A stretch of 28,505 nt of DNA from a virus. Shown here piece by piece: positions 3,683 to 20,757 of this stretch. The notes beneath the pieces were generated by a model. It ran no database searches and was not told the DNA's origin. It saw only the letters and a list, made by a program, of their open reading frames with translations. The stretch lies in the IMG/VR virus record IMGVR_UViG_3300029957_000035, positions 1 through 28,505 of that record; one strand, 5' to 3'. Each line of letters opens with the position of its first letter. Positions within the stretch are counted from its first letter, which is position 1. The position numbers and the translations under genes were made by a program.

Positions 3683-4066
3683 TCAGTCCTTCTTGGCAAC
3701 GATCACAGGGGTATCAAGCAACCCAGCCGCACGTGCAATCGGCGTCAGCGCGTTGATCATCTCCAATGTTCCAAGCGGAAGATCGTCAAATTCTTCGCGC
3801 GTAAGATCGGGCGATCCGCGTGTCAGCGCGGTGAAGACGATTTCCAGCATCGTGTCGTAGTGGTCCTGTGACAGGTACGACGCGAGCTTGTCCATGCTGC
3901 CGCCTTCAACCTTCGCGCTGGCGAGGATGTGGGGTAGGATGACTGTCAGTTTCGGAACGATTATGCGGTTCTGCTTGGGACCAAGCTTCGGCAGCGGCCA
4001 GTCTTGATCGCCAATGGTGATCGTAGTCGTGCCCGCGTCAGCAGGCTTCGAATGCGCAACGCTCAT
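3683..4066 (-). CDS. Tail assembly chaperone-like protein, short paralogue
   Basis: A 127-residue protein immediately upstream of the tape measure, the position of tail assembly chaperones (lambda G/GT-like). It has a strong AAGGAG ribosome site 9 nt before ATG, so it is made independently. Its core is clearly homologous to the neighbouring longer protein: both contain a W-P-(L/I)-P segment, then D-x-x-(L/V)-(D/E)-IVF-x-ALTRG-x-PD and a following (E/D)-(E/D)-F-(D/E)-D-x-P region, then an A-GL end. The function is inferred from position and the paralogy rather than from a recognised catalytic motif. Confidence 0.8.
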   Translation of the reverse strand: MSVAHSKPADAGTTTITIGDQDWPLPKLGPKQNRIIVPKLTVILPHILASAKVEGGSMDKLASYLSQDHYDTMLEIVFTALTRGSPDLTREEFDDLPLGTLEMINALTPIARAAGLLDTPVIVAKKD

Positions 4067-4077
4067 CTTCTTCTCCT

Positions 4078-4707
4078 TCAGTTTATTTTTATATCGCCTT
4101 CAGGGAACATGTTCAGCAGCCGGTCAACGGTGCTGGCGTCCATCGGTTCGATGTCGTCCTGAACTTCTGCGTCAGGTTTATATTTCAGATAGCCAGCAGC
4201 CACGACTGGCAGCGGCGGGTACTTCTTCCATGCTGCGTACTGGGCGTTCATGCGCGCGACCGTCAGCGCGTCTTCCCAGTAGTCAGGCGTGGTGCCCGGC
4301 AGGAAGTTGCAGAACTCTGCGATCACCGCGTCCCAGTCCGGCCACTCAGGTTTGACCGATAGCGGGCCGGGTTTCTTCTTGTCGTCACGCAGGCCGGTCT
4401 GGCGCATGATGACCGGAACCGCTTCGCGCAGTTCGGTGGTGGAGACTGGCCAGTCTTCGAAGTCATCCTTGTCGATGTCAGGATGTCCGCGCGTCAGCGC
4501 CATGAACACGATGTCCACCAGCGCGTCGTAGCTGTTGGCTTGCAGGCGGTCCATGGCAGGAAGGATGAAGCGAAGCTGGCGCGGCGCAAACGGTGGAATG
4601 GGCCACGCCAGCCCGGCAACTACGATTGATGGGTATTCAATCAGAAGCTTCCGGTTCGGCTTCAGCCGGTCCTGCATCAACGGGTGAAGCGGGTTCGACT
4701 TCGGCAT
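4078..4707 (-). CDS. Tail assembly chaperone-like protein, long paralogue
   Basis: I place the start at ATG 4707 (AAGG about 10 nt upstream), giving 209 residues; a GTG/ATG further upstream would run deep into the preceding small gene. The first 110 residues are paralogous to the 127-residue protein that follows (shared ALTRG-x-PD motif). The C-terminal 90 residues (W-x-D-W-D-x-V-I-A-E-F pattern, then a Y/P-rich region) are absent from the short copy. The overall plan, a short form and a long form sharing an N-terminal domain, recalls lambda G and GT, but here the forms come from two genes. The start overlaps the preceding 62-residue gene by 71 nt, which is unusually long. Confidence 0.78.
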   Translation of the reverse strand: MPKSNPLHPLMQDRLKPNRKLLIEYPSIVVAGLAWPIPPFAPRQLRFILPAMDRLQANSYDALVDIVFMALTRGHPDIDKDDFEDWPVSTTELREAVPVIMRQTGLRDDKKKPGPLSVKPEWPDWDAVIAEFCNFLPGTTPDYWEDALTVARMNAQYAAWKKYPPLPVVAAGYLKYKPDAEVQDDIEPMDASTVDRLLNMFPEGDIKIN

Positions 4708-4825
4708 ATCCGTGTGCCTTCGCTGTTTCGACGTGATGGTCAGATACGAGGACTTCGCCGTTCTCATCCGGTGCGTAGACCGAATTTTGAACGGCGAAGC
4801 CTTGCTTGCCCCGCATGCGTTTCAT
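4637..4825 (-). CDS. Small protein with a Y-x-P-D-x-NG-x-(V/I)-x-V domain
   Basis: A 62-residue product with a good start: GGAG overlapping the stop of the upstream tail tube gene, 8 nt before ATG. Residues 9-43 match the N-terminal 50 residues of the 250-residue virion protein at 18253-19005 (pattern Y-x-P-D-x-NG, then V, then A-x-G-Y/W), a small module I associate with phage structural genes without being able to name it securely. The C-terminal third is an acidic Ala/Glu/Pro tail. It sits between the tail tube and chaperone genes and overlaps the next gene by 71 nt. Confidence 0.68.
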   Translation of the reverse strand: MKRMRGKQGFAVQNSVYAPDENGEVLVSDHHVETAKAHGYAEVEPASPVDAGPAEAEPEASD

Positions 4826-4830
4826 TCAAC

Positions 4831-5577
4831 TTACTCCGATGTCACGATGCTGCCCCAGTTGTTCGAACCGTCCGCGAACGCTTGGAACTCAAAGTCGTTG
4901 ATGGTGTAGTCCGTGTTCTTCATCGGCATGTTCATCTTGGTCGCGCGACATGCGTTAAACTTCATGAACAACGTCTTGGTCGTTCCCTGAACGGTGTAGT
5001 TCTGTTCAAGGATCAACTGGAACTGCGGACCTGTACCCATCAGCGCCGATGTGCCAGCGACGTTCAGCAGCGTCGAGACGGTGTAGCTGTAGGTGTAGAG
5101 CAACGGTATGGTGTTGTCGGCGGCGTTGTGGGTGTAGACGCCGGAACCAGCCGCAGGCGCGACATAGATGCCAGCGCCAGAGGCCGACGCAGCAGGCTGA
5201 AGCTGAAGCCCGGTGCTGACGTAATAGACACCAAGGTCTTCAACGAACGTCGCGGTGTTGGCCATCGTCGCCGTGCCCGCCGCAGGTGTGTGCGCTTCGG
5301 CCACTGAGATTGTCGAACCTGCGTTGACAGTCTCCGTCATGCCCAGCAGCAGCGCATTGAACCCGTCAGCCTGAATGCGGGCGTACTTCGCTTTGCCGGT
5401 GATCTTGAGTTCGGCAGGTGCGATGTCCACCGGCATCTTGTACTGGCCGATCAGTTCCTTGATCGACTGGCTGAAGTCGATTTCAATATCCTGCAAGACG
5501 CCAAGGACGACAGGACGATTGTACAGAACGTCTGTGCGCTTGGCGATTGCGTTGCCTGAACCGAAATTGAGTTGCAT
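4831..5577 (-). CDS. Major tail tube protein, second copy
   Basis: A 248-residue tube protein candidate directly downstream of, and homologous along its entire length to, the gene at 5608-6354. The first 67 residues differ at only 13 positions by my count, and the last 60 (from the MG-x-GPQF region through NACRATKMN and the DFEFQAF segment) are also highly conserved. The middle (about 75-165), probably surface exposed, is strongly diverged. A ribosome site CGGAG lies 8 nt before ATG. The DFEFQAFxD ending and NTDYT(I)xDF pattern are typical of siphovirus tube proteins. Two intact copies suggest a mixed tube or a specialised second subunit. Confidence 0.87.
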   Translation of the reverse strand: MQLNFGSGNAIAKRTDVLYNRPVVLGVLQDIEIDFSQSIKELIGQYKMPVDIAPAELKITGKAKYARIQADGFNALLLGMTETVNAGSTISVAEAHTPAAGTATMANTATFVEDLGVYYVSTGLQLQPAASASGAGIYVAPAAGSGVYTHNAADNTIPLLYTYSYTVSTLLNVAGTSALMGTGPQFQLILEQNYTVQGTTKTLFMKFNACRATKMNMPMKNTDYTINDFEFQAFADGSNNWGSIVTSE

Positions 5578-5607: not shown

Positions 5608-6354
5608 TTATTCAGACAGCGCGAGTGTGCCCCAGTTCAGCGACGCGTCCATGAACGCCTGAAATTCGAAGTCCACGATGGTGTAGTCCGTGTTCTTGAA
5701 AGGCGTGTTCATCTTGGTGGCGCGGCAAGCGTTCAGCTTGACGTACATCGTCTTCACGACGCCTTGAACGGTGTAGGTGTTCGACGCCAGCAGTTCGAAC
5801 TGCGGTCCCGAACCCATCAGCGCATTGGCGCCAGCCATGCTGATCAGCGTGGTGACGGTGCGCGTGTAGTTGAAGTACAACGCAGCAGTGTTGTCGCCCG
5901 CGCTGACGGTGTACGTTCCGACGCCGACTGCGCCCGGAATATACTGACCAAGACCCGGCGCAGCAGAGATAGGCTGAAGCTGAATGCCGGTGTTCTGGTA
6001 GAACACACCCTGATCTTCAATGAACGTCGCGCCGAATGCGACAGTATATGTCGTCGCCGCCATCGTGTGCGCTTCGTTGACGATCAGATCGGTGCCCGAT
6101 GCAGCGGTCAGCGTGTTTCCGAACATCAGTGCGTTGAACATGTCGATCTGCATGCGGGCGAACTTCGCCTTGCCTGTGATCTTCAAGGCAGCAGGTGCCA
6201 CATCGACCGGCAGCTTGTACTGGCCGATCAGTTCTTTCACCGACTGGCTGAAGTCGATTTCCAAATCCTGCAAGACACCCAGCAGGACCGGCTTGTTGTT
6301 GGCCACGTCCGTGCGCTTTGCGACAGCAGTGCCGACACCGAAGTTAAGTTGCAT
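5608..6354 (-). CDS. Major tail tube protein, first copy
   Basis: A 248-residue protein with the strongest ribosome site of the tail genes (AAGGAG, 6 nt before ATG), consistent with a highly expressed structural protein. The same tube-protein signature occurs as in the downstream copy: LQDLEIDFSQS near residue 29, ELIGQYKLPVD near 41, NACRATKMN near 207 and a DFEFQAFMD ending. It lies after the tail terminator gene and before the tape measure, the standard position for a major tail protein. It forms a tandem pair with the next gene, with identical length, which points to a gene duplication with subsequent divergence of the central region. Confidence 0.88.
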   Translation of the reverse strand: MQLNFGVGTAVAKRTDVANNKPVLLGVLQDLEIDFSQSVKELIGQYKLPVDVAPAALKITGKAKFARMQIDMFNALMFGNTLTAASGTDLIVNEAHTMAATTYTVAFGATFIEDQGVFYQNTGIQLQPISAAPGLGQYIPGAVGVGTYTVSAGDNTAALYFNYTRTVTTLISMAGANALMGSGPQFELLASNTYTVQGVVKTMYVKLNACRATKMNTPFKNTDYTIVDFEFQAFMDASLNWGTLALSE

Positions 6355-6366
6355 TTCAAACTCCTT

Positions 6367-6846
6367 TTAGACTGGACGTGTGATTTCAAGCGGGATGTAG
6401 GCAAGGCTTTGGGCGTTATCGCCACCCACGCCTTCAACTATGTTTATCTCTGTGACCTTCACGTTGTATGCGATCTGGTTTCCAGTCGCGTCAAACAGCG
6501 GCTTCTGGACCGGCCCCTGCATCGCGAAGTTCACAGGTTCCAGCAATGCCGTCGCGATACCGACAAGGTTGTTGATGTTGGTGGACGGGATGCCCTGCTG
6601 CGTGTCTTCCGTGCGGCTGTAGATGATCCATTCCGCCATGTACCTGACGATGGGCATCGACTTGCTGCTGTAGTCGAATTGGATCGTGCGTTGCGGCACC
6701 TGCACCTGAAAGATCGCAGGCTGCTGATCAGGACGCAGTTCCGTCCATATCTGCCAGCGGCGCGATGTGTAGGCGAAGGCGGGGTTGCCTGCCACCAACG
6801 CCCACAAGGCGGCGAACACTGTTTCAGGGTTGCTGTAAAAACTCAT
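6367..6846 (-). CDS. Tail terminator / tail completion-like protein
   Basis: A 159-residue protein lying between the HK97 gp10-like neck gene and the tail tube genes, the usual site of the tail terminator that caps the tube and joins it to the head. The N-terminus (ETVFAALWALVAGNPAF, then R-x-W-x-I-W-x-EL near residues 29-37) resembles phage minor tail/terminator proteins. An IIYSRTEDTQ segment and a C-terminal strand pair fit a small alpha/beta fold. ATG overlaps the upstream stop (ATGA). Function is assigned from position plus weak sequence resemblance. Confidence 0.72.
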   Translation of the reverse strand: MSFYSNPETVFAALWALVAGNPAFAYTSRRWQIWTELRPDQQPAIFQVQVPQRTIQFDYSSKSMPIVRYMAEWIIYSRTEDTQQGIPSTNINNLVGIATALLEPVNFAMQGPVQKPLFDATGNQIAYNVKVTEINIVEGVGGDNAQSLAYIPLEITRPV

Positions 6847-7352
6847 TCTGGTTTCACCGCTTCTGCGAGTGCTGCGCGGATGTCGGCTTCGCGTTCGCGC
6901 AGTGCGGATCGCATGAAGGACCGTTCCGGCATGACAATGTCGTGTGGCCGTGTGCGCGGGAATTCGCCAGAGTGAACGCGCGACGCCATGTCGTTGCTGA
7001 CGAAGCGCATCATGCCGCTGGCGTCGATCCAGTACGCGGTGCCACCGGGATGGTGGATGGTGCCGCCGAACTCATGGATCGCGCCGTAGCGGACGGAACT
7101 GTCCGAATAGACGTAACCTGCGATCACTCCATAGCCTTCAAGGATACTGGATCGTTGAATGCTGCGGCGAAGTTTGCCGGTGCGAACGTTCAGCACCTGA
7201 CCATCCAGCTTTTGCTGGATCAACGTATACAGCGCCTGTTGCTGCTGGATGACCGCGTTGCGAACCTTGGTGTAAAGGTCTTTGCCGCGCTTCGTCATCG
7301 TGTCCAGTGCGGTCTGGTAGTCCACGATCACGGTGATTTCCGTGTCGCTCAT
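6843..7352 (-). CDS. Neck protein, HK97 gp10-like
   Basis: A 169-residue protein with the classic HK97-gp10 features: an N-terminal helix (residues 15-50), RTGKLRRSI near residues 57-65, VRYGAIHEFGGTI near 86-98, and a C-terminal R-P-H-x-I-x-M-PERSFMRSAL segment followed by a final helix. Proteins of this type sit at the head-tail interface. It is coupled by ATGA overlaps to both the connector gene upstream and the terminator gene downstream. Confidence 0.87.
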   Translation of the reverse strand: MSDTEITVIVDYQTALDTMTKRGKDLYTKVRNAVIQQQQALYTLIQQKLDGQVLNVRTGKLRRSIQRSSILEGYGVIAGYVYSDSSVRYGAIHEFGGTIHHPGGTAYWIDASGMMRFVSNDMASRVHSGEFPRTRPHDIVMPERSFMRSALREREADIRAALAEAVKPE

Positions 7353-8194
7353 ACCATGATCACGCGCTGGTACTGTTGCAGTATCATCTTCACGAAGTCA
7401 GGCACCGCCTTGACCGAATAGGATGTCGTCATCTGCCCGCCGACCGTTTGCGAGTTGACGCCGACACGCGTCATGTAGGCGTAGCGGTCAGCGATCCATT
7501 CGATCAGCGCCTGCTGAAGATCGACCGGCACGAAGTCGTAGCTGATCTTCACGCCCAGACCGACATCGGCAGCAGAGAAGATGTACTGGCCACCAGCCGG
7601 TCCAAGCGCGTACTGGCCGCTGGCCGGTGTCTCACTGTTCACCAATGTCAGCGCAACGCCAGTCGCAGCGAAGGTAACACCTTCATCGTAGACCCATGTC
7701 GGCTGCGTCGTGACCGTGACCACACCGTTCGCTGCGGGGATGGTCTGAAGTTCGTTCAGCACCGTGTAGCCGGTGACGTAGCTGATCTGCGTGCGCATCT
7801 CGCCTTGCGGGAAGCACGACCCGTAGAGCGTCACGCCTTGCGGATTGCCCGGCACAGTGCCGTCCCAGCTTTCAAGATAGTAGCCGTCAGACCAACCCGA
7901 TCCGCTGCCGGGTACGCTGCTGCCGGGCGACACAGGCTGGTTGTCCACGTAGACCGATGTGACAGACAGCACCGGCCATTCGCGCAGTATCATCTTGTGC
8001 GAACCGTAACCGTTGCGCGTTTCGGTGACGGTTGATTTATAAAACGGAACGCGGTTCACGTAGGTCACGCAAAGCTGCGAGAACCGCGTGATCATGCTTT
8101 TCAGGAGGGCGTCATTGGCGCCTGCGCCAGCGCCAGCGGGGGTCTTGTAGACCCACGCCTTCACGTCATCCAGAAGAACAAGATCACCCTTCAT
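7349..8194 (-). CDS. Head-tail connector (phiE125 gp8 / HK97 gp6-like) with extra domain
   Basis: This 281-residue protein has a helical N-terminal region (LLDDVKAWVY, then LLKSMITRFSQLCVTYVNR near residues 29-47), followed by TETRNGYGSHKMILREWPVLSVTSVYVD, the region conserved in phage gp6-like and phiE125 gp8-like connectors. The C-terminal helix LQQALIEWIADRYAYM is also typical. Simple connectors are near 100-200 residues; the excess lies in a Gly/Ser-rich insert (about 95-200) that is probably surface exposed. Its start is about 60 nt after the capsid gene stop, beyond a terminator-like hairpin, and it overlaps the next gene (ATGA). Confidence 0.82.
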   Translation of the reverse strand: MKGDLVLLDDVKAWVYKTPAGAGAGANDALLKSMITRFSQLCVTYVNRVPFYKSTVTETRNGYGSHKMILREWPVLSVTSVYVDNQPVSPGSSVPGSGSGWSDGYYLESWDGTVPGNPQGVTLYGSCFPQGEMRTQISYVTGYTVLNELQTIPAANGVVTVTTQPTWVYDEGVTFAATGVALTLVNSETPASGQYALGPAGGQYIFSAADVGLGVKISYDFVPVDLQQALIEWIADRYAYMTRVGVNSQTVGGQMTTSYSVKAVPDFVKMILQQYQRVIMV

Positions 8195-12051: not shown

Positions 12052-13827
12052 TCAGTTGATCCTTTGCAGGCCAAGCTTGCGCTTGATCGCGTTGAAGATT
12101 GAAAGCTGGCGCACCGTGATGTTCTGAAGGAAGAACTTGCGCCCGGCTGGATTGGTCAGGGTCAACGTGCGCCCCGGTATGTTCTGAAGCGTCGTGATGC
12201 GGACGTTCGAATTGGTCAGCAGCCACTTCAGATCAGGGTTGCCGCCAATAGCGCCGCCGACATGCGCGATGAACATCGCCAGATCGGAAGCTTCACGAAC
12301 GTTGTGTGCCAGCGGCAGTAGTTCGCTGGCGATCAGCGATATGACGTTCAGCAGGTGCGCGACCGGCAGCGGACTGTCCGATACCAAGTTCGCGCGGTGC
12401 ATCATCGCGGCGGGCTTGTCACTCTGTTCCGCCACGCGGTGTGCGAGGGGTATGAACGTGTCGGCCTGCGGTGAGATGGCCAGCGATGCGTGAGAGAACA
12501 CCACTAGTTCAGAGAAGCTTTCGAACACCAGATGTTCAACACCAATGACGCGGTCGCCATCTTCAAACACCAGATGTTCCGCGCTGACAGTTTCGTTGGC
12601 TACTTCAGCAACCAGATGTTCGGCGTTGAACGGACGATCCACTTGTTCAGCTACACGATGCGCCAGCGGCATAAATCCATCGGTCGTTTCCGCGAAGCCG
12701 GAACCAAGGTGCATCATGTTGACCAGCGTGTCGCCACGCTCAAAGACAAGATGCTCCGTGATGAACGGACGATCTGCCAGCGCAAGCTGCAAGTGTTCCG
12801 CATAGAACGCTTCAGTGGCTACTTCACCGACAAGATGTTCGACGTAGAACTGGCGGTCTGCTGCCAGCGTTCCACGGTGCATCATCTGGTCGGTCTGATT
12901 GCCCTGTTCAGCGATCAGGTGTTCCGCAAGCACAATGACGTTGGACTGTTCCGCTTGCAGATGTTCGGCGTACAAGAGGCCATTTGCGACCCTGCCACTG
13001 TTGTGGCCCATCATCGCATTTTCATTCGCCACTTCAGCAGACAGATGTTCTGAGAGGAACGGGAAGCCTGCTGTCAGGGCGAAGCCGGATGACGCGAAAG
13101 AGAAGAAAGGAACATCACTTCCGCGCTGAAAGATCGACCACGGATCGCGCGCCCATTTTTCAAGCTGACCGGGATCTAGATATTCGTATGAAAAAAGCGA
13201 AAATCCAAAAAACGCTGCTTTTGCATTCGTCGGATGACCGATCAGAGGCCACGTCGAAGTGAAAGTCGCGGCGGCGGGCGCGGTCGTTCCAATGTCAAGC
13301 TGATAGCCAGCCGCATCAAGGCGCTTGACGAGCAACGCCGTATCCGCACCGCCACCCGTTGTGCGGCACGATCCGGCGATGAAATAAACGCCACCCGACG
13401 CAATCGCCAACGTTGAAGTGAGAAACGCAGTTCCAGCCGAGGCGAGATTGACAAAATTCGTTAGCGTGCAATTAAGCTCAAGCCCCGTTGCTGTAGTCGT
13501 ATTCGTGCTTATTAGTGTGCCAGCCGAACCCGTGCCGTTCGGTATCCAGAGGCACGCGAATGTGAAATTCGCCGGAACGGTTGTCGGACGATTTGAGACT
13601 TCAAGGCAAGCCGTAGCGCTGGCGACATTCGCCGTCAGACCGATAGACCGCTTCATCGCCGCGTTGACGGTGCCGACCGATACACCTTTTTGCTTCGTGA
13701 TTAAATCGCGACATTTGATCGTAGTTCCGCCAGAGTTCGGAACCATCAACCCCATGCAGTTTTTCGCCGCCGGATGCGAACGATTGATTGTGAAACCGCG
13801 AGGATTACCGCGTCGAATAAGGGGCAT
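12052..13827 (-). CDS. Fibre-like virion protein: LamG-like head, 14-residue His repeats, 10-residue C-terminal repeats
   Basis: A 591-residue protein with a good GGGG ribosome site. Residues about 50-235 look like a concanavalin/LamG-type domain, ending in EYLDPGQLEKWARDPWSIF, the segment that closes such domains in many phage proteins. From residue 258 to 530 the chain is a strict repeat: 19 histidines at positions 261, 275, 289, 303, 317, 331, 345, 359, 373, 390, 404, 418, 432, 446, 463, 477, 491, 508 and 522, spaced 14 residues except for three 17-residue steps. Consensus is AEHLVAEVANETVY-like, two short strands and a turn. The last 50 residues are five exact 10-residue units (R-x-L-x-L-x-N). 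Probably a trimeric or solenoid receptor-binding or head-decorating fibre; function is inferred. Confidence 0.8.
   Translation of the reverse strand: MPLIRRGNPRGFTINRSHPAAKNCMGLMVPNSGGTTIKCRDLITKQKGVSVGTVNAAMKRSIGLTANVASATACLEVSNRPTTVPANFTFACLWIPNGTGSAGTLISTNTTTATGLELNCTLTNFVNLASAGTAFLTSTLAIASGGVYFIAGSCRTTGGGADTALLVKRLDAAGYQLDIGTTAPAAATFTSTWPLIGHPTNAKAAFFGFSLFSYEYLDPGQLEKWARDPWSIFQRGSDVPFFSFASSGFALTAGFPFLSEHLSAEVANENAMMGHNSGRVANGLLYAEHLQAEQSNVIVLAEHLIAEQGNQTDQMMHRGTLAADRQFYVEHLVGEVATEAFYAEHLQLALADRPFITEHLVFERGDTLVNMMHLGSGFAETTDGFMPLAHRVAEQVDRPFNAEHLVAEVANETVSAEHLVFEDGDRVIGVEHLVFESFSELVVFSHASLAISPQADTFIPLAHRVAEQSDKPAAMMHRANLVSDSPLPVAHLLNVISLIASELLPLAHNVREASDLAMFIAHVGGAIGGNPDLKWLLTNSNVRITTLQNIPGRTLTLTNPAGRKFFLQNITVRQLSIFNAIKRKLGLQRIN
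12258..13056 (-). repeat. Coding repeat: 14-residue (42-bp) histidine units
   Basis: About nineteen units of 42 bp (three of 51 bp) in the fibre-like gene, encoding x-(E/M/A)-H-(L/R)-x-x-x-x-x-(N/D)-x-x-x-x. Three recurrent flavours are seen: AEHL, MMHR/MMHL and PLAHR. The three longer units all end in (M/I/L)-PLAH. The periodicity is exact at protein level while DNA units have diverged, which argues for selection on structure and against recent slippage. Confidence 0.85.
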
Positions 13828-15821: not shown

Positions 15822-16562
15822 TTATTCCTCTGTCGTGTAGCCGAGCGCGCAGCGGCAGTTCGGATGCGCAGGTGGCGCGTCATCGCCTGATGGGAAGTCA
15901 TCGTCCAGATCGATTGGACCTTCGTCTTCGTTGTCCTGACAGTCATCGCAGGCTTCATCCGTCACGACCCACGTCTTCTGGATCGTCAGATCGGTCGTGG
16001 CCGCGAGTTCGCGCAGACCTTCCAGTGCGCCTTGGCTTTCCGCGCCAGCGATTTCAGTTTCCGCGATCAGGCTTGCACGCTTGTCGCTGAACGCGTCCAT
16101 CGCGTGGATGCTGTCTGCGATCTGGCCGACATCAAGACCGCTTTCGATGCCGGTCGTGATCACGCGGTTCAGTTCGTTGCGCGTCGCCTCATCGATCTGC
16201 GTGACAAGATCGGCAGCGTGGCTGTTCGCCCAAGCGACAGCCCTGTCGTTCACAGCCCCAAAAAGCTGCGGAGCATCCGTAGAGTTCGCGAACCCAAGCC
16301 CGATGATGGCGTGCGTTCCGCCTTCGTAGGCGGCGGCGGCAAAGTCGGCTGCGCTGTTAGTTCCTGCACTGCCAACTGTGCCAAGTGGGACATCGTTTGC
16401 GATGGTGTTTTTGCGCGTGGCTTTTTCCGCTTTGTAGTGGGCGCGGAAGTACGCGATGACTTCGTTGGCTTGTTCCTTGAACGCGCGGGCATATCGAGCC
16501 TCGATAGCTGTCTTGGCAGAATTGCCCTTCGGCCCAGACGTGGGCGCTATGTGTACATCAAC
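15822..16562 (-). CDS. MuF-like minor head protein, probably made as portal-MuF frameshift fusion
   Basis: The frame encodes 246 residues from the frameshift point. Its C-terminal 150 residues have the Mu gpF / SPP1 gp7 signature: VNDRAVAWAN, a helical IDEATRNELNRVITTGIESGL region, RASLIAETEIAGAES, then C-x2-C and a final H-PNCRC-x-L. The 103 codons upstream of the first possible start (GTG 16253, without a well-placed ribosome site) also read as sensible protein (KEQANEVIAYFRAHYKAEKA). No ATG, GTG or TTG codon was seen in that stretch. The frame meets the portal frame in the -1 register at A AAA AAG, so the likely product is 536 portal residues plus these 246. If a separate product exists it would be about 143 residues from GTG 16253. 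Confidence 0.8.
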   Translation of the reverse strand, partial: VDVHIAPTSGPKGNSAKTAIEARYARAFKEQANEVIAYFRAHYKAEKATRKNTIANDVPLGTVGSAGTNSAADFAAAAYEGGTHAIIGLGFANSTDAPQLFGAVNDRAVAWANSHAADLVTQIDEATRNELNRVITTGIESGLDVGQIADSIHAMDAFSDKRASLIAETEIAGAESQGALEGLRELAATTDLTIQKTWVVTDEACDDCQDNEDEGPIDLDDDFPSGDDAPPAHPNCRCALGYTTEE

Positions 16563-16571
16563 TTTTTTTTT
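16532..16571 (-). promoter_or_regulatory. Candidate -1 programmed frameshift site at the portal gene end
   Basis: The minus strand carries nine consecutive A residues (16571-16563) then G. In the portal frame they read ATA AAA AAA AAG TTG ATG TAC ACA TAG. The in-frame heptamer A AAA AAG (16568-16562) is the dnaX-type slippery sequence. A -1 slip continues as GTT GAT GTA CAC into the MuF-like frame. A 5-bp stem GCCCA/TGGGC with a CGTC loop (16545-16532) lies 16 nt downstream, farther than usual stimulators. Confidence 0.7.
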
Positions 16572-18169
16572 ATGCCGATGCCGTTCTTGGCCAGCAGCTT
16601 GCGAACAGCTTCTGCGTCTGTCGCGTGAATGTGGAACTTCACCGTGCCGGTCGGCGCTTTCGAGCCATCGCCAGTGCCGGTGTCGTTCGCCGTTTCGTTG
16701 TCGTTGCCGACTATGGGGTTGCCCTTCGCATCCGTCTTCGGGTCTTTGCCGTCACCCTGCATGGGCGGGCCACCGTTGTGACCCAGCAGTGGCGGGGGCG
16801 GTTCAGGTTGTTCTAGCGGCACGTAGCCGGTGGTCGTCCACACCAGCGGCGTGTCGGCCAGCGGATCGCTGAACGGCTGAAGACCCTTGGCTGCGCGGCC
16901 TTCGTTGATCGTCAGCAGCGCACCCTTCACATCGTTCAGCGTGATCGTCGCCTGCGTGGCAGCGTCGGCGTCTTCGTCTTCCTGCCAACTAAATTCGACA
17001 TCGTTGTTCTTGAAGACGACGCGGATGACGTAGTCGCACAGTTCCTTGATCCACAACTGGATCGGCATCAAGCCTTCTTCGAGAGAAGCATCCTTGAGAC
17101 TTTGCGCAGTCGCGCGATTAAGATTAGACACAAAGGGAGCAGGGCTGATGCTGAAACAATAGCAAGCGACCCTAGCCAGCCATTCATCGAACACATTTTT
17201 CAGTTCCGCTTCTTTGGTGGGAATGTAGGTCTTGGCAATTCCACCGGGCACGAACTTGGCATGACGGCGCGATGCCGTGTTGCCTTCAAGCATGTTGTCC
17301 CAGTAACGCTGGAACGCATTGATCTGGTCAGGCGTCCACGTGTCGGGCACGCCGATCAAAGCTTCGGGGATGTTGCCTTCGGTGTAGTATTGCGTCTGCC
17401 ATGTCTGGCGGCGCAACGCGATGTTCACCGTGGTCAGCAACTGTTCGGTCGGCCCGAAACCGTAAATCTTTCCAGTGCGGCTGTTGCGCGGACGGTAGAT
17501 GACATCGTCAGTCGTGTAATCGACCGCAGGCATACCCTTCAGCACTTGCTGGTAGGCAGGATATGGAGGCAACGGCGTCCGACCCCACGGATCGATCACG
17601 CGCTTGATCGTTGCGCCGTCGATTGGTTCCAGTGCGAAGACACCACCACCCCGCGTGCGACGGATATAGAGCGTTGGTGCGTCCAAGACAAAAAGGTCTT
17701 CCAGCAGTTCGCGCAGCCACTGCGTCCATCCCATGTTCGTGTCGGGTTGCTGGAAGAATGCTTCCAGTTCCGACGCCTTGTCCATGACCGCTGTCGGCGC
17801 TTCCTGATCGCCCTTTTTGTACAACGCCTTCTTGGGAACGATCTGCCATGGCATGCGGCAGAGTTGGTCCTTGCGCGTTTCAATCAGTAGACGGAGCAAA
17901 TCCCACGCATCGGCCAACTGGCGCAGCACCGGGAAGCTGATCGCTTCGTAGGCGCGCGGCGACTGACTGAGATTGTAGCCAACCGGATAGTCCAGAATGC
18001 GCCCCGCCACATCGGCAGGCGCAAGCGGCATCATCGGGTCAAGCGGCCCGAAGAAGCTTTGCGCTGTGCCGGTGCTGTCGAAGCGTGCGCTTACACGCAG
18101 GACATCATGCCCGCCTGCAAGCGGGCGCACGTTCGAACCGGGCGGGGGATTATCGCGTTCGCCTGACAT
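16547..18169 (-). CDS. Portal protein (HK97/SPP1-type) with unusual C-terminal tail
   Basis: I choose ATG 18169 (540 residues); a TTG lies one codon earlier, and neither has a clear ribosome site. The portal forms the dodecameric DNA gate. Family features are the LRLLIETRKDQLCRMPWQIVP helix region near 91-112, LLEDLFVLDAPTLYIRR near 165-181, a proline-rich segment, and QTQYYTEGNIPEALIGVPDTW then IN-x-F-Q-x-Y-W near 280-310. The last 100 residues are Gly/Asp/Asn/Pro-rich with a GHNGGPP motif, then TVKFHIHATDAEAVRKL, a motif also present at the tape measure C-terminus. The gene ends right after a slippery A-run. Confidence 0.9.
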   Translation of the reverse strand: MSGERDNPPPGSNVRPLAGGHDVLRVSARFDSTGTAQSFFGPLDPMMPLAPADVAGRILDYPVGYNLSQSPRAYEAISFPVLRQLADAWDLLRLLIETRKDQLCRMPWQIVPKKALYKKGDQEAPTAVMDKASELEAFFQQPDTNMGWTQWLRELLEDLFVLDAPTLYIRRTRGGGVFALEPIDGATIKRVIDPWGRTPLPPYPAYQQVLKGMPAVDYTTDDVIYRPRNSRTGKIYGFGPTEQLLTTVNIALRRQTWQTQYYTEGNIPEALIGVPDTWTPDQINAFQRYWDNMLEGNTASRRHAKFVPGGIAKTYIPTKEAELKNVFDEWLARVACYCFSISPAPFVSNLNRATAQSLKDASLEEGLMPIQLWIKELCDYVIRVVFKNNDVEFSWQEDEDADAATQATITLNDVKGALLTINEGRAAKGLQPFSDPLADTPLVWTTTGYVPLEQPEPPPPLLGHNGGPPMQGDGKDPKTDAKGNPIVGNDNETANDTGTGDGSKAPTGTVKFHIHATDAEAVRKLLAKNGIGIKKKLMYT

Positions 18170-18252: not shown

Positions 18253-19005
18253 CTAGTTCATCGCGTTCATTTCGAGGAATTGCAGCACGACATCGTTGGC
18301 CGCAACACCGTTGCCGGTGACAACAATAGTCATCGTGGCCGCTTCCGACTGCGTCAGCGCAATCGTCGATGCCATACCGCCATGCGTCGCGCCAGCGATC
18401 CAGTTGCCTTGGAAGTATTGCGTGTTCGAACCGGCAGCGCCGTACTTGAACAGGTTGCCGAACAACTGCCAGCCGCCGTTGTTCGTGGTCTGCGAGCCTG
18501 AACTAAGCAGCAACGCGCCGGAACCTGCCGCCGTAACTGTTCCTGCATTCGTCAGCACGCCGCCGACAACTGCCTGACCGGACATGGTCGGGTTGATCCA
18601 CAGCTTCCAGAACTTCGCGTTGCCGGTCGCGCCAGTCATGCCCTGTGCGGTGATCGCAAGACCACGGCCAGCAATGTCGAACGCAGACGCGTCCAGCACG
18701 ATGCCGCCAAGGATGTTGTCCACCGAACCAGTGCCGCTGCCGCCGAAGCCGGTAGCGCCAGCGTTGACCGAACGGAAGATGTTTCCTTCTTCCTTCAGGA
18801 TGCTGAAAGTCGCGGCGGGATACGTCAGACCGCCGAACAGCACAGTGTCGTTGGCCGGTTCTGCATAGTAGTACCAGCCAGCAGCCAGCAGATCGGGCAC
18901 TTCGTAATTCTGCACCGTGATCGCGCCATTCGCATCAGGCACATACTTGTTGCCGAAACGCGACTGGTAGATCGCAGGTGCGGTGGGGTTGAACAGAACG
19001 ATCAT
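18253..19005 (-). CDS. Virion protein, probable decoration or head fibre protein
   Basis: A 250-residue protein coupled to the large terminase gene by ATGA. Residues about 15-48 hold the Y-x-P-D-x-NG-x-(I/V) ... A-x-G-W module shared with the 62-residue protein at 4637-4825. The rest is Gly/Ala/Thr-rich and strand-rich (GGIVLDASAFDIAGRGLAI, AKFWKLWINPTMSGQAVVGG, TMTIVVTGNGV), typical of a jelly-roll or beta-sandwich virion protein. Being between terminase and portal suggests a head role. I do not recognise a named family. Confidence 0.72.
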   Translation of the reverse strand: MIVLFNPTAPAIYQSRFGNKYVPDANGAITVQNYEVPDLLAAGWYYYAEPANDTVLFGGLTYPAATFSILKEEGNIFRSVNAGATGFGGSGTGSVDNILGGIVLDASAFDIAGRGLAITAQGMTGATGNAKFWKLWINPTMSGQAVVGGVLTNAGTVTAAGSGALLLSSGSQTTNNGGWQLFGNLFKYGAAGSNTQYFQGNWIAGATHGGMASTIALTQSEAATMTIVVTGNGVAANDVVLQFLEMNAMN

Positions 19006-20543
19006 TGTGTGGTCTCCATGATTGGTTTGAAACCGTTGCGCTTGAAAGCGTCCACGTCATCTGCTTCCGCGTTTATGCAGCCTTCGCTGTCTGTGTTGTA
19101 CATCGCACCGTATCGGCCAAAGACCGTGCCGATGCCGGGCGGCGCTTTCATGCGCACGTAGACTGGACCTTCCTTGACCGCATCGACTATCGCATCGTTC
19201 TGCATGCGCATGTAGTCGAGTATCGCAAGGCTGTTGTCGGGCGGCACCAGCAGTTCGGTAATCGCCCACACCAGCGCGTCTGCGCGGTCAGGCGAGTGAT
19301 CGCCGGAATATCCTGACGTGCTAAAACCGCAAAGCTGTTCTTCAAGTTCAGGGAAATCGTCGCAATGCACGACGCGGCCCTTCTCATACAACGCAGCGAC
19401 TGGTTCGGCGCGCACATGCTTGCCACGGCTGGCCGTGATCATCTTGATCGGCGCACTGCTGCTGGCGCTGCGCAGAACCGCTTCGACCATCGCGCCGCCG
19501 AAGTTCTGTTCGGCAATGATGCGGCTGGCTTTCCACTTGACGTAGAGTTCGTTCGCTTTCTTGGCCCATTCCAATGGACCCATGCGGCCTGACGCATCTT
19601 CCAGAACGTAGGCGACACCGGCAGCATCCTTGCCAGCCACGACCAAGCCAATCTCATCTGACGACTTGTCTTCGCTGGACGATGCGCCTGACGGATCGAC
19701 CGCAACGACAATTTCCACAAGCTGTTCGATGTCCACCATCACGCGGTGACATGCGTCGATGGTTTCAAGCGTCCACAGCGCGCCTTCGACCACATCGGTG
19801 AACTCACCGCGCAGGAAGCGCGCCTGATCGCGATCAGGCAACGAACGCAACAGCCGCATGTATTCCGGTGCGATGTGCGCTTCATTATCGCCGGGGTTCA
19901 TCTGCATCATCGCGTAGTCATGCGGGTCAGCAAGCGGGCGGCGTGTGTTCGGTTCTTTCAGTTCCACGAATATGCGATGGGTCCAGTGACCCTTCGGCGG
20001 TGGGTTGCAGTCGTAGTAGGCACGCAGCTTCAACCCGGACTTCTGCGCAAGACGTGTGATGACCTTGTTGCGCGACGGGTAGCTGATCTGACTGACTTCG
20101 TTCAGCCAGATCGTGCTGTGTTCCTGTCCAAGGATTTTTTCCGTGCGTTCTTTTTCATCCAGACCGCCGAACAGAACCTTACCGCTGTCAGGTTCGCCGT
20201 TGAACGTGACAGACCAATCGTCCTGCTTCAGCCGGTAGGTGACATCGGGAAACGATCCACGCATCACCGCTGGCAGCGTCTGTTCGATGATACTTTCGCG
20301 CAGATGGTTGAAACGATAGCGCAGAACGGTGTGCGTCGAATGCTTGGCGCGCAGTGCGCGGACGATAACCGCGCGCATGAACAGATACGACTTGCCCGAC
20401 CGCGATCCGCCATACAGCAACTGGTGCGTGGCATTGCCGCGAAGGATCGTGCTGTTCGCCTGCAACTGGCGCGGTGTCAGTTCCTTGCCTTGCAGTCCGA
20501 CATATTTGTCTACGACTTCGGCGTCAGGCGATGACACCGGCAT
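19002..20543 (-). CDS. terL: Terminase large subunit
   Basis: The ATP-driven DNA packaging motor and headful/cos nuclease. I take ATG 20543 (513 residues); an in-frame TTG two codons upstream is possible. Near residues 45-52 is the Walker A loop GGSRSGKS, near 144-149 the Walker B strand TIWLNE, and near 279-286 the RNase-H-like nuclease begins with VVAVDPSG (candidate metal-binding Asp283). Near 427-437 is SPDRADALVWA, the third acidic motif. Length is typical. It overlaps the upstream small gene by about 20 nt and the downstream virion gene by ATGA. Confidence 0.95.
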   Translation of the reverse strand: MPVSSPDAEVVDKYVGLQGKELTPRQLQANSTILRGNATHQLLYGGSRSGKSYLFMRAVIVRALRAKHSTHTVLRYRFNHLRESIIEQTLPAVMRGSFPDVTYRLKQDDWSVTFNGEPDSGKVLFGGLDEKERTEKILGQEHSTIWLNEVSQISYPSRNKVITRLAQKSGLKLRAYYDCNPPPKGHWTHRIFVELKEPNTRRPLADPHDYAMMQMNPGDNEAHIAPEYMRLLRSLPDRDQARFLRGEFTDVVEGALWTLETIDACHRVMVDIEQLVEIVVAVDPSGASSSEDKSSDEIGLVVAGKDAAGVAYVLEDASGRMGPLEWAKKANELYVKWKASRIIAEQNFGGAMVEAVLRSASSSAPIKMITASRGKHVRAEPVAALYEKGRVVHCDDFPELEEQLCGFSTSGYSGDHSPDRADALVWAITELLVPPDNSLAILDYMRMQNDAIVDAVKEGPVYVRMKAPPGIGTVFGRYGAMYNTDSEGCINAEADDVDAFKRNGFKPIMETTQ

Positions 20544-20757
20544 CACCAAGTTGTTCGCGCATGATTTCCTTGCGCGTCAGGTACATCGGCATGCGCGGTT
20601 CGCCCGGCATCTTGCGACGTGCTTCCTTGGTCGCCGCAAGCCAGCGCGCGGACCACACAGCAACGTTCAGCTTGTGGTTCAGAATGATCACGGCATCGCT
20701 GACAACTGCGTGCGATGCGCCCCACTTCTGGATCGACTTCAGGATTTTCAAACTCAT
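20524..20757 (-). CDS. Small unknown protein before large terminase
   Basis: A 77-residue product with a good ribosome site (AGGA, 8 nt before ATG). It overlaps the terminase start by about 20 nt, suggesting coupled translation. The sequence is basic and helical (KILKSIQKWGASHAVVSDAVIILNHKLN, AVWSARWLAATKEARRKM). It might be a packaging accessory or, less likely, the small terminase itself. No family recognised. Confidence 0.7.
   Translation of the reverse strand: MSLKILKSIQKWGASHAVVSDAVIILNHKLNVAVWSARWLAATKEARRKMPGEPRMPMYLTRKEIMREQLGDAGVIA

Follow-up and report, generated by a model that had tools for sequence, protein, structure and literature searches.

Predicted slippage at a nine-adenine run joins a phage portal gene to its MuF extension, an arrangement that recurs among relatives

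The frameshift that yields the lambda tail chaperones gpG and gpGT, reportedly described by Xu et al. in 2004, is a conserved case of recoding in phage structural genes, with varied heptamers and a C-terminal extension present on a minority of the product. The locus analyzed here differs from it in being a head (portal) gene with a MuF extension and in showing two apparent mechanisms. E. coli dnaX makes short and long forms of one subunit at an A_AAA_AAG heptamer accompanied by a Shine-Dalgarno motif and a hairpin. The window (i.e., the whole stretch of DNA that we analyzed, 28,505 bases) likewise has A_AAA_AAG in register and putative short and long forms of one subunit, and some of its relatives possess the full combination of Shine-Dalgarno motif, A-heptamer and hairpin, whereas the window itself lacks a Shine-Dalgarno motif and a significant hairpin and has the roles of the two frames reversed. 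Thermus thermophilus dnaX is similar to the window in that nine A's without ribosomal stimulators give two products and stops lie nearby in the frames that do not encode the long form (PMC5009743). In Thermus, the nine-A/T run leads to extra A's in the mRNA, and bacterial RNA polymerase slips efficiently on runs of nine A or T (PMC5009743). The differences are that the gene is another one, that in the window the 0-frame encodes the short form and the long form would arise by slippage, and that slippage in the window is predicted. A -1 frameshift also gives a second form of a capsid component in the major head protein of Lactobacillus phage A2, as summarized in a later paper (Garcia et al. 2004, cited in PMC10885494), but that is another protein and involves no portal-MuF pair.

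The MuF protein of phage SPP1, gp7, binds the portal, enters the procapsid interior in one to two copies per capsid, and helps infection to start (PMC6316719; PMC5576092). SPP1 differs from the window in that its portal (gp6) and MuF (gp7) are encoded by separate genes and linked non-covalently. Actinophages with a fused portal-MuF (Arthrobacter phage Sonali; Microbacterium clusters EA3, EA5, EA8 and EB; PMC7302621) show the same domain order in one protein, but theirs is a one-frame fusion for which no recoding is described. Among the unconfirmed hits of a 2024 frameshift predictor are MuF-like genes, and its authors suggest that genes found fused in other genomes can hint at frameshifting (PMC10885494). 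In the open-licence literature on portal, MuF, frameshifting and slippage, we found no description of portal-MuF recoding, and an earlier report elsewhere is possible; the portal is named neither in the accessible part of a recoding review nor in a 2013 survey of frame transitions. Judging from the relatives, a slippery portal-MuF junction is a recurrent and seemingly unreported feature of a whole phage family.

The window corresponds to a linear virus record of IMG/VR, on the minus strand of which the terminase large subunit, a 250-aa protein, the portal, the MuF frame and a 344-aa protein of no assigned function follow one another in this order. The features relevant here are as follows (window positions).

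19002 to 20549, minus strand: terminase large subunit, upstream of the portal (phrog_979, E 1.4e-64)
18253 to 19005, minus strand: 250-aa protein between terminase and portal
16547 to 18169, minus strand: portal, short 0-frame form, 540 aa (start ATG 18169; alternative start TTG 18172)
16563 to 16571, minus strand: A9 slippery run at the portal/MuF junction (0-frame ATA AAA AAA AAG)
16547 to 16549, minus strand: TAG stop of the short portal, 13 nt past A9
16532 to 16545, minus strand: 5-bp stem GCCCA-CGTC-TGGGC, beginning 17 nt past the run
15822 to 16562, minus strand: MuF extension, -1 frame, 246 aa plus stop (Pfam and phrog_2662 matches)
12052 to 13827, minus strand: 591-aa protein

No PHROG match was obtained for the 250-aa or the 591-aa protein. 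Elsewhere in the window, two adjoining minus-strand genes (4831-5577 and 5608-6354) both match phrog_8234 and represent a tandem duplication, and the gene at 7349-8194 matches the same family weakly. The two genes ahead of the tape measure gene (window 3683-4767, minus strand) are separate genes. Inspection by eye revealed no site of the lambda G/T kind ahead of that gene, and the second of the two genes has its own ATG with GAAGGAG, so that no frameshift of the lambda G/T type is evident there.

The portal matches Pfam Phage_portal PF04860 (E 2.6e-20) and profile positions 31-441 of phrog_2662 (E 1.4e-73), and it shares 51% identity with the portal region of Brevundimonas phage Polewnik. Its 0-frame ends in GGC ATA AAA AAA AAG TTG ATG TAC ACA TAG, where the A9 run contains A_AAA_AAA and A_AAA_AAG, both in register. 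Relative to the portal, the MuF frame lies in -1 and is open from 16751 to its stop at 15822; it scores 46.9 bits against Pfam Phage_Mu_F PF04233 (curated cut-off 29.6) and matches profile positions 487-708 of phrog_2662 (E 8.2e-27), with the conserved MuF domain starting 285 nt past the run. Neither the portal nor MuF gave a sequence match to solved structures. Since phrog_2662, a 717-position "portal protein" family, spans the junction, and since one uninterrupted ORF covers portal and MuF in some relatives (Brevundimonas phages Polewnik and Strzyga, Arthrobacter phage Sonali, and the metagenome contig L002), homology identifies the -1 frame as the C-terminal part of a portal-MuF protein, whose coding sense extends far upstream of the first possible start in that frame. 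An initial annotation, made from the DNA alone, had proposed a crossing into the -1 register at A9 just ahead of the portal stop, and the sequence bears out its coordinates as well as the arithmetic of the fusion (536 + 246 = 782 residues). Its statement that the MuF frame reads as protein before any start also agrees with our data, as the phrog_2662 match begins at residue 16 of the frame, while no ATG, GTG or TTG occurs in frame before GTG 16253, 309 nt past the run.

Apart from this A9 (T9), no A/T run in the 28.5 kb of the window reaches 8 bases; base composition predicts 0.04 runs of at least 9, and synonymous resampling of the 3' codons of the portal yielded A9 or longer in 1% of trials. 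The third frame, which is neither portal nor MuF, stops 2 nt past A9, so that neither of the two frames without MuF stays open for more than 13 nt (resampled p 0.01). Across the class of long-run sites, such close stops in the two frames are only modestly enriched (mean percentile 0.35) and thus weak evidence. The initial annotation had called the site dnaX-type and pointed to the 5-bp stem. The general logic and the in-register A_AAA_AAG stand, but the E. coli version, with Shine-Dalgarno motif and hairpin, is absent: the stem is present 17 nt past the run, yet it folds no better than dinucleotide shuffles (z -0.46) and is probably not a stimulator, leading us to reject a stimulating hairpin at this site, and upstream of A9 no Shine-Dalgarno motif was found (anti-Shine-Dalgarno pairing of -1.7 kcal/mol versus a mean of -8.9 at the A6-A7 sites described below).

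Relatives were gathered from portal alignments, given that plain protein scans with the window proteins returned no viral contigs for the portal and only 2 for MuF. The alignments comprised 306 loci in 184 clusters at 90% amino acid identity (first set), two further scans supplied 40 new clusters as a held-out set, and only a few more loci came from searching 399 genomes of one order; most of the sequences compared are metagenome contigs. Both domains are present in 140 clusters of the two sets, and in 33 of them MuF occupies the -1 frame, with A9 or A10 at the junction in 25, another in-register slippery heptamer in 4, and mostly an ordinary start in the remaining 4. A run of at least seven A's occurs in none of the 7 clusters with MuF in +1. 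Viewed from the run instead, MuF is in -1 in 25 clusters with 9-10 A's, in frame in 17 and in +1 in none, and the run lengths over both sets are A7 in 12 clusters, A8 in none, A9 in 20, A10 in 22, and 11 or more in none.

More specifically, MuF follows the portal in 100 of the 184 first-set clusters: in one ORF in 72, in -1 in 23, in +1 in 4, and split within the same frame in 1. A9 or A10 is found at the junction in 20 of the 23 -1 clusters, as opposed to 2.5 expected to have A9 or longer under synonymous resampling with their own codon usage. The other three comprise L182 (A_AAA_AAG with GGAG upstream), L199 (ATG preceded by GAGG) and L145, in which we found no slippery site. None of the four +1 cases has an A-run; L003, L027 and L029 have an ATG start, and L195 a possible GTG start. 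The MuF of L003 (about 6585-7490) also seems, by eye, to contain an intein-like insertion (CLPGGT...VTHN) just before the last Cys motif. In the held-out set, five of the 10 -1 clusters have A9 or A10 (L460, L335, L326, L391, L327), three have C_CCT_TTN just ahead of the portal stop (L324, L328, L329), L446 has no heptamer and an ATG preceded by GGGAGG, and L374 has only ATGs. The comparison of homologous phages proposed in the initial annotation thus turned up both fused genes and the slippery site, with -1 A9/A10 junctions in many clusters.

Slippery sites are also found where portal and MuF share one frame; a locus of the A9/A10 type in the Limnobacter litoralis prophage (L151), for instance, has the fusion as its 0-frame. 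Counting X_XXY_YYZ heptamers in register at the same distance from MuF as the junction, we obtained 46 positives among the 72 one-frame genes, where 8.5 would be expected and where control windows gave 3.3%; the heptamers include A_AAA_AAA, A_AAA_AAG, G_GGA_AAA, C_CCT_TTT, C_CCT_TTC and others. In several of the C_CCT_TTT genes, a -1 slip would meet a stop at once (CCC TTT TGA) and give a short portal. The contrast was weaker among held-out one-frame genes, of which 9 of 27 have an in-register site (3.1 expected; controls 7/108), and no recognizable slippery site was found in 23 of the 72 first-set and 18 of the 27 held-out one-frame relatives. For portals with a non-MuF C-terminus, the heptamer showed no excess (6/42 versus 5.3 expected), so that the slippery site goes with MuF rather than with portals generally, and the proposition that every C-terminal extension of these portals lies behind a slippery site was rejected on the same count. 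Other C-terminal domains replace MuF in L008, L010, L041, L088, L103 and L119, several of them following an 'RDxxGRWT'-like linker; those of L041 and L088 resemble lysozyme by eye, and all may possibly be cargo carried on portal subunits. A-runs lie near the junction in a few non-MuF extensions (toward the 3' end of the portal ORF in L122, A10, and L119, A8; also L161, A9).

Two classes of A-run site can be distinguished by their surroundings. Leaving aside L199 (ordinary ATG) and L188 (A6 out of register), a Shine-Dalgarno motif precedes 12 of 15 A6-A7 sites versus 5 of 34 A9-A10 sites (Fisher 2e-5), and the A6-A7 sites exceed the others both in the strength of anti-Shine-Dalgarno pairing, by a wide margin (p 3e-7), and in that of the hairpins downstream (p 0.003); these p-values assume independent clusters although related phages are not entirely independent. 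A9-A10 sites, including that of the window, mostly have neither signal and occur in any codon register. From these contrasts we infer two mechanisms: the A6-A7 sites conform to the E. coli dnaX pattern of ribosomal frameshifting, and the A9-A10 sites, with A8 missing between the classes, suggest RNA polymerase slippage as in Thermus dnaX. For the window, its A9 without Shine-Dalgarno motif or hairpin leads us, on these sequence signals, to lean toward polymerase rather than ribosomal slippage.

We therefore think it very probable that recoding at this junction gives a 782-residue portal-MuF as a minority product beside the short portal, and hence two portal proteins from one gene. Standard decoding would yield the 540-residue portal ending in KKKLMYT, and a minority of reads would continue in the -1 frame after A9 to give portal-MuF (KKK-VDVH...). 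In the likelier route, RNA polymerase would slip on the A9 template and part of the mRNA would gain one A (or the equivalent modulo 3), which standard ribosomes would then read as the fusion; this route may be supplemented or supplanted by ribosomes slipping into -1 on A_AAA_AAG. The portal ring would be mixed, with mostly short subunits and a few having MuF inside the head, keeping MuF copy number low relative to the dodecameric portal. The initial annotation's central idea, that recoding joins portal and MuF, is strongly supported by the relatives; the site itself fits the long-run class that polymerase slippage explains better, with ribosomal slippage as the less likely alternative.

The same two products could come purely from ribosomal -1 frameshifting at A_AAA_AAG, a less probable reading whose probability overlaps with that of the recoding explanation as a whole. 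The in-register E. coli dnaX heptamer in the window, the -1 direction kept throughout, and the A6/A7, G_GGA_AAN and C_CCT_TTN sites of relatives, often with a Shine-Dalgarno motif and of ribosomal appearance, all speak for it; against it are the lack of a Shine-Dalgarno motif and significant hairpin both in the window and in the A9-A10 class, and the skip in run length from 7 to 9-10, which matches the 9-nt runs of polymerase slippage (PMC5009743).

A sequencing or assembly indel would be an unlikely explanation, by which the true run is A10 and portal-MuF is one in-frame gene in the window. Homopolymers are error-prone, the window's nearest relatives mostly have one-frame genes, and a single base next to A10 separates L133 (one frame) from its near-identical counterpart L189 (-1). 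On a portal tree of 100 clusters, the window forms a long branch in a mostly alphaproteobacterial subclade (L003, L004, L011, L020, L027, L029, L032, L139 and others), in the rest of which no A9 was found, but instead C_CCT_TTN sites, separate starts or no recognizable site. The window's A9 is thus, as far as these sequences tell, an independent case, and on the window's own evidence a one-base error is possible. On the other side, 25 clusters share the -1 arrangement, which does not vary between distinct contigs of one cluster (L203/L205/L210/L218; L279/L280; L238/L250), random errors would also yield +1, which was never seen with a run, and A10, if real, would still be slippery as in L152, L168 and L169. 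The recurrence of the same design elsewhere makes sequencing error the less likely reading. On this quick tree with many weak forks, the A9-A10 -1 state needs 11 changes, of which well-supported branches force at least 5, indicating that the arrangement arose or was lost repeatedly. DNA-level phase variation was rejected as the main explanation, as run length is constant in most clusters and only one pair (L133/L189) is switched.

Independent translation of MuF, from GTG 16253 or from a non-canonical start codon, is very improbable even though some relatives start a separate MuF from ATG or GTG (L003, L027, L029, L446, L358), because GTG 16253 has no ribosome site and lies inside the conserved domain, so that a start there would drop the homologous N-terminal part. 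Relatives that combine an independent MuF start with no heptamer, which the initial annotation had held to count against slippage, do exist (L003, L027, L029, L446, L199), but the window has no such start codon; given relatives with a separate MuF start, covalent fusion is not indispensable. A genuine inactivating frameshift with MuF in decay, conceivable insofar as SPP1 gp7 is dispensable for assembly (PMC6316719), is equally improbable for a frame that is open over 246 codons with its Cys/His motif intact and a break that coincides exactly with the A-run and takes the same -1 direction as that of the relatives.

For the family at large, we consider it rather probable that recoding at the portal-MuF junction builds mixed rings, and that lineages readily exchange one kind of slippage (ribosomal or polymerase) and one kind of fusion (in-frame or shifted) for the other, suggesting selection on the ratio of short to long form and not on the route. 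The portal is the ring by which DNA enters the capsid, and its twelve subunits are usually taken to be identical; were a few of them to bear MuF through recoding, the ring would be asymmetric by construction. The proposed role is that building MuF into a minority of ring subunits would fix its low number, which, if true, answers how MuF stays low-copy per head in these phages. In genomes of this kind, MuF will be split off or missed by gene-calling programs. As a parallel to dnaX, the family lends itself to comparing the ribosomal with the polymerase solution to the same problem in homologous genes.
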